Positions 8,396 to 53,832 of a stretch of DNA of 64,000 bases are shown in pieces. The DNA is taken from contig NC_133971.1 of assembly GCF_031877795.1 (NCBI RefSeq), positions 60,396,463-60,460,462 of the forward strand. Reading direction: 5' to 3'. The notes under the pieces were generated by a model. It was not told the DNA's origin and made no database searches. It was given only the letters and a program-made list of their open reading frames with translations. The position numbers were made by a program, and so were the translations under genes. The stretch is from Strix aluco. Lineage: Eukaryota > Chordata > Aves > Strigiformes > Strigidae. Each line of letters begins with the position of its first letter. Position 1 is the stretch's first letter.

Positions 8396-9774
8396 CTAAA
8401 GTATGCTACAGGTTTTGGAAGCTGGAGCTGTTCCTCCATTACAGGTTATTCCATCTGCCATATAAAAAGAAACACAGAATTAGAGGTACAGCCATAAATG
8501 TCCTTCTCAGTCATTACATGAGTTTTTTAGCACTTTTAGGTTATCTAGTGATCAATGTAGGTCATACCTATAGTGCCTATATCTAGAGCTGTCTGCTGTG
8601 CAAAGTAATCATACATGTAAGGCTGCTTGGAAAGAGTATTTCAGTTAGCAGAAACCTTCCTCATTTAAACACCAATTATTTAGTCAGGAAATAATTTTCA
8701 GAAATTTTCCAAATCATAGCTAAAGCACATACTTTTTGTTATTTTAAGTTAATTACTATGAAATAAACTGAGATAAAGCATCTAGACAACTCTAATAATT
8801 TCTACGCTGTGTCATTTGAGGAATGTCCACCCCATGGACTGTTGGGATTTTGATCCAGTTTGGAACAAAAGTGGACTTCAGATCTGTGGAGCCTCTGTGG
8901 AGTGGAGGCACCAAGTTCTGACAGATGTTTGCTCAGACACTTGAGAGAGGCCAGGAGGGCCTTCTGCTTCCACCTTTCTAAGAGTCAAACAGATCCTCAG
9001 GCTATCAAACAAGCTTTCACCCAACGCGAACTGAAGCTGACGGATTTCAGTGCTGGACCCACAGAAGAAGAAAAACTTATAGCCAAAATAAATTGCTACT
9101 GGGTACTACTACTGCTGCTTGCTTCTAGGTAATACTTAATCTGGGCTAGAAATGGGATGAACTGTAATTCCTCAAGTGTTTTCCCTAGGAGTATGTTAGC
9201 TTTTAACTCCTTTTGCTTCACGACCTGTGGGATAGCGCATTGACCACAGTCCCTGTGTACAAAGGGATGACTCCCTGCTCTTTTCCAGGGACTTAGGTAT
9301 ACTGCAAAGGACTTTCTGCTGTCCCCAGTTGCATGGGTGCTCATGCTGAATGTAGTCTCACTAGTTTCTCAGGCACTAACTCCTGGGCATTTAAGCAGGT
9401 GGCCTTTTTGACAGCCTGTGATGGTGTCAGGTTTGAAAACAAGGTATCTTGAACCTTGCCAGTGAAGCAAGATTGAGGAAACTTGTTCTGGGCATCTGAC
9501 TGCCATGTCAGCAAAGCTCGCTGCAGATCTGGGACAGTAACACATAAGTATGTTTTTGAGTTAAGAATGAAAAACGAAGTATAGTTTAGGAATGAAAAGT
9601 TAAGTAATGTTTCTGACCTTTCTTTGCAGCCATCTTCTCCTGCTCTTTTTTCTTCTCTTCCTCCAGAGCTTTCATTTTTGCATCATACTCATCAGCACGG
9701 GTCTTCCACTCGTTTCTGTTGTTCAGCAGCCCATCAAGCATAGGCTGAATTTCCTCGTGGAAACGGGAAAATTC
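8396..9774 (-). CDS. PDE6B: PDE6B exons 21-22: C-terminal tail and CaaX box
   Basis: Exon 21 (9618-9774) encodes [13 protein letters not shown] followed by a Lys/Glu-rich coiled stretch ending KMAAKK. Exon 22 (8396-8454) begins after the acceptor GGCAG, finishes a split GAT codon, and encodes [19 protein letters not shown] and TAG. The CNGG(T/P)AP block and the final CxIL match the human beta-subunit tail. A final leucine predicts geranylgeranylation, as for mammalian PDE6B. The last exon has only 59 coding bases and would be missed by a length-based gene finder. Confidence 0.9.
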
Positions 9775-51000: not shown

Positions 51001-53832
51001 AGAAAGGTTGTCCATCATTTTGCTTGGTGGCTGTCTGCTTGTACAGAAACGGGTTGTAAAAAGCCTGCTGAGCTGAAGGAGGGTCAGTGCACTGCCCCAG
51101 ATGCAGTGCAGTTGCACAGCAGAGGCAGGAACTAGACAGCAGCTGTCAGTGATGGGGAGGAACGTCACAGATTTGCATTACTTAATGACAAACAGTGACT
51201 TTGCATTAAGAAAGGACATGCCCATTCCTGAGGCAGCTGTGCTGAACCATAGTCTGGTTCTTGCCCAAGTCCTGAGTGAGGGACACCCATTTGAAGGTCA
51301 CATGCTGCAGGGTTTTATCTTCAGTCTCATGGATCTTGTTGCAGGTTCTGGGTGATCTGTGCTGACATGGCTGCTCAGTATACAGTACCCGACCCAACCA
51401 CTCCAGCAAAAATGTACATGACCTACCAGGGCCTAGCCAGCTACCTCTCCAGTGGTGGTGAGTGAACTTCTCCAGCCCCACGGTGCTGGTCAATAGCTTA
51501 ACAGCTGCACAGATTTGTGTTTCAGTATATGAGCAGGAAAAACAATTGAGTTCATGTTGCTTCAAGTGGAAACAAAGAATCCTTTTCTGGAGGGATGCTT
51601 TTATCTGAGTAGTGCTTTTTATATCCACAGAAGGGGCAGGATTCAGAGACTCCCCAGAGACCCCACCTATACACCATATATATTAACAGGAAGAATGCAG
51701 CCCAGAGCTAATTGGCCATACCCATAGATTTTGTACAGCCAAGTGCAGTGCTGAACCTAGGGAAACAATACTTCCTGGGATGCACAGTGGGCATTACAAA
51801 GGTGGTGAGGGTCAGTTGTCCTTGTACTCCTCACAGCTAATGGGAGGTGACATATGGACCCACATCTGCACTTCAGCAGCAAGGCATAATTCTCCTCAGA
51901 CAGACACAGCTGGACTCAACAAAATGGAGCTGTTAACTGAAGTCCCCCTTGCAGAAACTGCTCATGCTGAACCTCAGTTATGCACCCAGAACACCCCATA
52001 CTTTGTGCCTGAGTATCCCATAGCTCTGGGACTCCATCTGTGAAAGTTGGGCAGGACTTGGCCTGCTGATGCATAAGAAAGAAGTACATTCACTTAGTAC
52101 TGGCAGATAAGCCACACCAAAATGCACCTAGTTTAGCAAGGCTGGAAAACAGGAGGCATGTTTTGCTGAGGCTTCCTGTATAGGAAACGTAATCTGTATG
52201 GCCAAAATTTAATCTGTATGCCCTGTCTCCCCCATGCTTGAGTGAGAAACATAAAGCAATTTTTTTGTCATTGGAAAGTCCTAGTCCTACTAATACTTTT
52301 AGCCAAAGAAACTAAAAGTGAAAATGCACTGAGCGTCACAGGGAACAATGTGGTCTCAAGATGCCCTGTGCTTGTCCCAGTTCTTCACTTCATGGTGTGG
52401 ACATAAACTGGATGTGGGAGGTGACTTTAGATCCTTTGAGAAGCTATCTTTGCCATGTGCTGAAGTGAGGTGTCTCTCTGTGGAATGACTAGGTCCACCT
52501 CTGCTCTGCTTTGCCCACGGTGACAAACACATGTGTTCTGATGTTTCAGGGGACAACTACTGGGTGATTGACACTGACTATGATAACTATGCCATTACCT
52601 ATGCCTGCCGCAGTCTAAAGGAGGACGGCTCCTGTGATGATGGCTACTCCCTGATCTTCTCACGCAACCCCCGTGGCCTCCCCACAGCCATTCAGCGCAT
52701 TGTGCGTCAGAAGCAGGAAGAAATCTGCATGTCTGGCCAGTTCCAGCCCGTACTTCAGTCAGGTACTTTGGGCTAACTAGCAAACTTACTGAAATGGCTG
52801 CTCTGGCAGCTTGTACACTAGGTGACTGCATTTGCTGTAAATGTGACAGAACCATAGCAAACTAAGTTGTGCTCTTTTAGCAACCTTTTTTTATAGCATA
52901 TCTAATAAGAAAATATCATGTCTTGGCCACATGGACTACCACAGCTTACCTTAGGTCTGCGCACTGTCCTCCAGGAAAGGAAGAGAAGCTGTCTCCAGGA
53001 AGGAGCAACCTCACTCTTCTTAGCTCAATCATGATTTGTGTCCTGGGAGGTCTGAGTAGCAGAGATTAGCAGCTCTGAGCAGTGGTTCTGACTGTGTCTG
53101 ATGTCAGTGGGAGTCAGCAGTTGTGTCACATACATGTGAACTGGGCATGTCTAAATCCCATTTTGAGAGAGCTTTTTTTCTGGAGGCATGGGAGCTGATC
53201 TTCTAGTTCATGTGCTGCCTGTGAGATAGGCAAATAATTTTTTAGGGTTATGCTGGAGGCAGAAAATCCTCTTTGTTGGCAGGTGAGTGCCCACACCCTC
53301 CACATGCACACTGCCTTGCCTGGAAATTGACCTAAGGCAGGCCTGAGGACCTGGACTGGGGGACTGCCACGGTAACACACGTGTTCTGCACTGCTGGACA
53401 AGAAATAGGAGCTAAAACCTTCTGAACGGCACATCATTTTGTGAGCCAGTCCTCCACTACAGAGCAGGTGCTGGCATCATTCAAGGTTATGGGACTGGTA
53501 TGGGCAGCCACGTCCCATGACCCTACATATTGTTTACTGTAGCAGACGGAAGGGAGTTGGTTTGTGGACTCATGCCTAGGTGCTCACATAAACAGAAAAC
53601 TCACAGCTGGCTGGAACTAACATAGGCTGTGCAAGTGCTATACCAAAAGACACAGAGCAATGCAAACTGCAAATTTTGCACTCTCCCATGCTAATCTTGT
53701 ACTATGATTCAGAAGTACCCTAGGAAGGTTGTAGCTACAGCTTCACCGAAAACTAAAAGGCTGTTAAAGCACTTTGCAAATTTACTTACAAGGACTAAAA
53801 TTTACTTCTCTTTCTTTCCAGGGGCCTGCTAA
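48063..53832 (+). CDS. Purpurin, retinal lipocalin (RBP4-like)
   Basis: A secreted retinol-binding lipocalin of the neural retina, described in chicken as a photoreceptor survival and adhesion factor. Coding exons: 48063-48179, 49639-49775, 51345-51457, 52550-52762, 53822-53832. All introns are GT-AG and the product is 196 residues. The signal peptide is about residues 1-21 ([21 protein letters not shown]). The lipocalin motif is [15 protein letters not shown] (about 40-54). Other family blocks are [12 protein letters not shown], the third lipocalin segment around [18 protein letters not shown], and paired cysteines. The C-terminus is QSGAC-stop, from a last coding exon of only 11 bases. I recall chicken purpurin as 196 residues and nearly identical, differing at a few sites (for example R where chicken has T after EEDG). 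RBP4 itself ends differently and has a different leader, so this is not RBP4. The gene is absent from placental mammals as far as I know. Confidence 0.95.

Follow-up and report, generated by a model that had tools for sequence, protein, structure and literature searches.

In the account of Lagman et al. (2016, PMC4906994), PDE6A, PDE6B and PDE6C form a family produced by the two early vertebrate genome doublings (2R), with PDE6B placed in rods and no PDE6A in birds. A phototransduction paralogon, in which many vision genes are linked by 2R chromosome copies, was described by Lamb and Hunt (2018, PMC6170504), and RBP4 was treated as an early lipocalin, with paralogue groups in fish that arose through tandem and genome duplications, by Diez-Hermano et al. 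(2021, PMC8420045). Here we analyse a 64,000-nucleotide stretch of the Strix aluco genome (the window; contig C41, positions 60,396,463–60,460,462), in which PDE6B, one of the three family members, lies beside an RBP4-like lipocalin gene, called purpurin below. The pair mirrors PDE6C, a second family member, and RBP4 in the same genome, and the two pairs were probably copied from one ancestral neighbourhood.

PDE6B and purpurin are transcribed away from each other from start codons 18,094 bp apart. A search of the source assembly (1.41 Gb, 202 contigs) and a reading of 110 kb of contig C7 located PDE6C on the minus strand (start codon at C7:23,408,265) and RBP4 on the plus strand (start codon at C7:23,417,504), adjacent, divergent and in the same order as the window pair, with start codons 9,239 bp apart. 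The original prediction had compared PDE6B and purpurin with the human order of PDE6C and RBP4; because the second pair was found on C7 with the same order and orientation, the mirror is now a fact within one genome. Gene models also reproduced exactly the span first proposed for the two genes (8396..53832). Assuming 15,000–17,000 genes, the chance that two named genes are immediate neighbours is ~1.2–1.3e-4, or ~6e-5 when orientation is included, for a comparison that was picked post hoc.

Similarity and gene structure identify the members of both pairs. When compared with solved structures, the PDE6B product matched the rod PDE6 beta subunit best (1580 bits), followed by rod alpha (1431) and cone alpha' (1288). 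Identities were 687/833 with 6mzb beta, 621/829 with 6mzb alpha and 561/833 with PDE6C of the same bird, so that, among the few sequences sampled, the window gene lies nearest to PDE6B, ahead of PDE6A and PDE6C, and appears to be a PDE6B orthologue. Pfam recognised two GAF stretches and a PDEase_I domain, the tandem-GAF-plus-catalytic-domain layout. The C-terminus is CSIL, compared with CRIL in 6mzb beta; a CaaX motif ending in L is, we assume, a geranylgeranyl signal. In the gene model, all 21 PDE6B introns have GT-AG junctions. PDE6C likewise has 22 coding exons, and between the two genes intron phases are identical at 21/21 introns and exon lengths at 18 of 22 exons. A genome search with PDE6B gave 42 matches (54/62 candidates scored), 34 of them at the C41 and C7 loci; the other eight, on C3, C4 and C6, have 30–50% identity and look like remoter PDE genes. 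PDE6A thus seems to be missing from this bird, consistent with its reported absence in birds (Lagman et al. 2016).

The window lipocalin has a lipocalin domain in Pfam, GT-AG junctions at 4/4 introns and, as its best solved relative, the plasma retinol-binding protein 1iiu (231 bits), which we take to be chicken RBP4. Since only 95/172 positions are identical to 1iiu, the gene is related to RBP4 but is a different gene; 97/194 positions are identical to RBP4 of the same bird. RBP4 of this bird, 1iiu and 3fmz (presumably human RBP4) are 85–97% identical to each other, and purpurin is 50–55% identical to each. Judged by sequence, purpurin stands apart from RBP4, at the same distance from the bird and the mammal proteins. 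All six RBP4 cysteine columns are common to both proteins in an alignment counted by eye. The first four exons measure 117/137/113/213 in purpurin and 129/137/107/213 in RBP4, with phases 0, 2, 1 and 1 in both. A purpurin query of the genome returned six matches, all on C41 or C7, and purpurin was not found in a viral contig collection. These structures and identities bear out the proposal that PDE6B/PDE6C and purpurin/RBP4 are pairs of paralogues. The name purpurin is our assumption, drawn in part from the value of 50% that a review gives for chick purpurin, with which the window lipocalin is compatible.

We consider it most likely (probability roughly 0.8) that one ancestral neighbourhood with a PDE6 gene and an RBP4-type gene was copied in a large-scale duplication, most likely an early vertebrate genome doubling. 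On an ancestral vertebrate chromosome, a PDE6 catalytic gene would have stood next to an RBP4-type lipocalin gene, the two divergent, with a PCGF gene within ~1 Mb. Duplication of this block in a large-scale event, most likely one of the two early doublings, would have left PDE6C-RBP4 in one copy and PDE6B-purpurin in the other, after which the genes may have specialised separately, PDE6 by rod versus cone and the carrier as a plasma protein versus a photoreceptor-secreted retinol carrier. Copying as a unit, as the original prediction held, is the best reading because paralogous pairs are mirrored in one genome and a PCGF-family gene is present in both neighbourhoods. Its further claim, that the pair was then partitioned jointly between rod and cone or liver roles, found no support. 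Nothing indicates a joint partition: the PDE6 genes divided between rods and cones, whereas the carriers divided between tissues. The review describes purpurin as a retinol-binding product of photoreceptors whose RNA was absent from brain, heart and liver samples.

The PCGF genes were located with a PCGF3 probe, which gave 23 matches (150/200 candidates scored). Six are exon matches at C41:59.40–59.42 Mb, ~1.0 Mb from PDE6B-purpurin. Two weaker matches (61% over 42 residues and 50% over 40) lie at C7:22.76–22.78 Mb, ~0.6 Mb from PDE6C-RBP4; seven are on C40 and eight elsewhere. PCGF3 and PCGF5 are presumably akin, and a PCGF-family gene at these distances from the two pairs means that a block was probably copied. 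Several families are therefore linked in parallel, as in a 2R paralogon: PDE6 and RBP4/purpurin in adjacent pairs, and a PCGF-family gene near each. The pairs, their order and orientation, the gene structures and the nearby PCGF genes are all observed in this one genome.

Several observations on the neighbourhood and on timing count against this reading. When 244 kb around the window and the 110 kb of C7 were compared in translation, and rows overlapping four repeat-bearing C7 intervals were dropped, nothing beyond PDE6 and the lipocalins exceeded 32 bits. The outer neighbours differ: IDUA and SLC26A1 lie beside purpurin, and FRA10AC1 (left) and FFAR4 (right) beside PDE6C-RBP4, names that we assign to the C7 genes from probe matches. 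The PCGF gene on C7 is presumably PCGF5, a name that follows the position of the human gene and is less certain because a locus on C4 also matches the PCGF3 probe at 47–67%. JAKMIP gave 14 matches on C4, C7 and C13, and the LGI-type EPTP repeat gave 26 on C4, C7, C9, C27 and C28; neither had a match on C41. Those for EPTP on C7 lie 60 kb from PDE6C. In human, JAKMIP1 and LGI2 are, we assume, linked to PDE6B, and this linkage, which does not define the paralogon, is not seen in this bird. A simple human-based map is accordingly weakened and not plainly reproduced. JAKMIP is a neighbour family in the analysis of Lagman et al. (2016). The PDE6B block may have moved to the Z lineage, or else the linkage in human is secondary; the missing JAKMIP and LGI linkage could be accounted for by a later translocation.

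Distances in the two families also fail to run in parallel. PDE6B and PDE6C are separated by 0.54–0.62, compared with 0.18–0.23 within orthologues (~2.5–3 times the bird-mammal distance), and RBP4 and purpurin by 0.76–0.94, compared with 0.15–0.18 within RBP4 (~5 times the bird-human distance). A faster rate in purpurin or an older split would each explain the larger ratio, and equal dates for the two splits are compatible with these values. A PDE5-rooted tree of seven sequences placed PDE6A and PDE6B together against PDE6C (support 70). The carrier tree, with four amniote sequences and no root, leaves room on its own for a late, fast bird duplicate, and the age of purpurin therefore rests on its equal distance to bird and human RBP4 and on the fish literature. 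Purpurin is named in work on zebrafish, trout and damselfish, which places its origin before the fish-tetrapod split if the fish genes are orthologues.

Three of five DM-domain matches in the genome fall within 100 kb at C41:29.00–29.10 Mb, which we take to be the DMRT1/3/2 cluster. C41 is the Z chromosome and the window pair is Z-linked. C40, which carries a PCGF3 copy and complexin matches scoring equal to those at the far end of C41, is likely the W chromosome. The equal-scoring complexin-like matches lie at C40:80685–96732, near one end, and C41:96958702–96974748, as expected of a pseudoautosomal region. In the genome searches neither PDE6B (54/62 candidates scored) nor purpurin had a match on C40, where PCGF3 does have one, so that females probably carry a single dose of PDE6B, which encodes a rod effector.

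Relatives of other genes in the PDE6B block lie on further contigs. Complexin exons occur at C41:59.10–59.15 Mb, ~1.25 Mb left of PDE6B and presumably CPLX1, and at C13:10.0 Mb, and also on C12, C29 and the ends of C40 and C41. SLC26A1, next to purpurin, has as its best solved relative the 'Sulfate transporter' chain 8tnw (205 bits), which we take to be SLC26A2, the neighbour of PDE6A in human. Among sulfate-transporter matches, the C41 SLC26A1 gene and a locus at C13:12.548–12.551 Mb rank highest, and each is laid out in two pieces in the same way; a further piece lies at C13:12.566 Mb. The position of SLC26A1 next to purpurin, and of its relative SLC26A2 by PDE6A, suggests an older PDE6-RBP-SLC26A order. 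The neighbourhood before the doublings could then have held PDE6 facing one way and RBP and SLC26A1/2 the other, with PCGF and complexin nearby, and have survived in three copies: PDE6C-RBP4, PDE6B-purpurin-SLC26A1 and PDE6A-SLC26A2, the last (presumably human 5q32) having lost its carrier. The neighbourhood itself would have given photoreceptor expression and kept a carrier beside PDE6 twice. We regard this fuller reconstruction as doubtful. In a search by the C13 SLC26A locus for a remnant of PDE6A or a third gene of RBP type, covering 10 kb upstream only, the best match had E 0.077. If the reconstruction were true, the positional coupling of vitamin-A delivery to the light-signal enzyme would predate the separation of rod and cone enzymes.

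The failure of the 244 kb and 110 kb comparison to match more than two families (repeat intervals dropped), and the lack of a JAKMIP or LGI-type match on the PDE6B contig, would fit a small segmental duplication that copied only the PDE6-RBP pair, independently of the genome doublings. Such an event is unlikely given the PCGF-family genes 1.0 and 0.6 Mb from the pairs (the C7 gene being presumably PCGF5), and given that relatives of the complexin and SLC26A genes in the PDE6B block share one contig, C13, in the pattern of old chromosome-scale copies; the scatter of PCGF, complexin and SLC26A genes is that expected of such copies. The printed dating of PDE6A/B/C to 2R (Lagman et al. 2016) points the same way.

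A different kind of explanation concerns the persistence of the pair and is compatible with copying in a large-scale duplication: the two genes would be kept together by a common divergent promoter, or an enhancer, through which photoreceptors express both. The literature describes PDE6B (rods) and purpurin (made by photoreceptors) as photoreceptor genes, but the start codons are 18.1 kb apart, the intergenic stretch of the sister pair has no non-coding match to that of the window, and RBP4 is described as carried from liver, so PDE6C-RBP4 is not a photoreceptor pair; we consider this explanation improbable. No two-way promoter is indicated, because 18.1 kb separate the start codons in one pair and 9.2 kb in the other, and the two intergenic stretches have no common blastn match at E 1e-3. 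A bidirectional promoter common to PDE6B and purpurin was rejected as unlikely on the same grounds of distance and of a missing common non-coding match. That the adjacencies arose separately, purpurin or RBP4 having moved beside a PDE6 gene by chance or through selection for photoreceptor expression, would suit chromosomes reshuffled relative to human, as the PDE6B block on the Z is, but it needs the same order and orientation twice, with one such adjacency at ~1e-4 (for the gene number assumed above), and is highly improbable.

Upstream of purpurin, a TATA-like element and a following gtaggt donor likely mark its promoter and a 5' untranslated exon, as predicted from sequence alone. Two GGATTA cores, presumably CRX/OTX-type photoreceptor motifs, lie directly upstream of the likely start, and may hint at photoreceptor control of purpurin in a region that was picked post hoc. 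The motif has 17 sites across the whole window on both strands; one core precedes the PDE6B start codon by ~450 bases, and the tested stretches upstream of RBP4 or PDE6C had none. In chick pineal, purpurin is reported to cycle rhythmically. Ten open reading frames of the window, five of them intergenic, had no Pfam match in a search, not exhaustive, for a gene between PDE6B and purpurin; scanning the window with Rfam and for tRNA genes gave nothing at the thresholds used. Between 30001 and 40000, G exceeds C on the plus strand (GC skew 0.12–0.16 in four of five 2-kb bins), and no tandem repeat was reported there.

Features of the window and its surroundings are listed below. To the left of the window, weak myosin light chain-like and ATP5ME-like matches correspond to genes that we take to be the human neighbours downstream of PDE6B. 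PIGG and CPLX1 had no match at E 0.01 within the 244 kb around the window. Reverse-transcriptase-like frames of a long interspersed element, read by eye at 4304–6664 on the minus strand, are presumably CR1. The segment 4304–6164 was matched repeatedly in the flanks of the window, and two of its open reading frames had no Pfam match. An AGA microsatellite of 65 copies occupies 7088–7279, downstream of PDE6B.

Features of the PDE6B-purpurin window and of its flanks. Plain coordinates are window positions.
Feature	Position	Strand	Details
PDE6B coding region	8396..29969	minus	22 coding exons, 836 aa; intact exon models with GT-AG junctions; initiation codon at 29969, final base of stop codon at 8396
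PDE6B-purpurin intergenic stretch	29970..48062		18.1 kb; repeat at 44276-45313
Two GGATTA cores	46954..46984	plus	directly upstream of likely purpurin start; region picked post hoc
Candidate purpurin promoter and 5' untranslated exon	47052..47159	plus	TATA-like TATTTAAA at 47052; gtaggt donor at 47160; predicted from sequence
Purpurin (RBP4-like lipocalin) coding region	48063..53832	plus	5 coding exons, 196 aa; intact exon models
IDUA exon	L018:5193-5690	minus	right of purpurin; E 3e-34
SLC26A1	L020:7906-8439; C41:60488494-60491074 (60.488-60.491 Mb)	plus	named from a probe match; follows purpurin
Myosin light chain-like exon, weak	L017:3310-3950 (left of window)	minus	best PDB match E 2.8e-4
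ATP5ME-like start, weak	L017:3310-3950 (left of window)	plus	13 residues; E 0.004

The mirrored pair is real and well supported, and its best reading adds one family to a paralogon already described. To our knowledge mammals have no purpurin; if they lack it, a neighbour list built from human chromosomes would miss the retinoid-carrier family that here joins the PDE6 paralogon. Bird genomes can, this suggests, expose ancient linkages hidden in mammals. Within the literature searched (subscription papers and supplements lay outside it), no paper was found that connects the PDE6 duplication with purpurin or RBP4, that joins rbp4l with pde6b, or that joins PDE6B with the Z chromosome and chicken synteny.

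The neighbour families of Lagman et al. (2016, PMC4906994) were selected on human chromosomes, and the main text of that paper does not contain RBP4, 'retinol binding' or purpurin. Relative to that scheme, the owl genome adds a carrier family and a PCGF gene, and its PDE6B block belongs to the Z, a contig that lacks any JAKMIP match. The RBP4 branch of Diez-Hermano et al. (2021, PMC8420045), as set out in the text available, leaves purpurin unnamed and draws no link to PDE6. In the corresponding text of Lamb and Hunt (2018, PMC6170504), PDE6A/B/C are not firmly attached to the phototransduction paralogon, no region is given for PDE6C and there is no mention of 'rbp'; the position of PDE6B and PDE6C relative to the main vision paralogon is an open point in that study, for which the PDE6-carrier pair offers a microsynteny marker.

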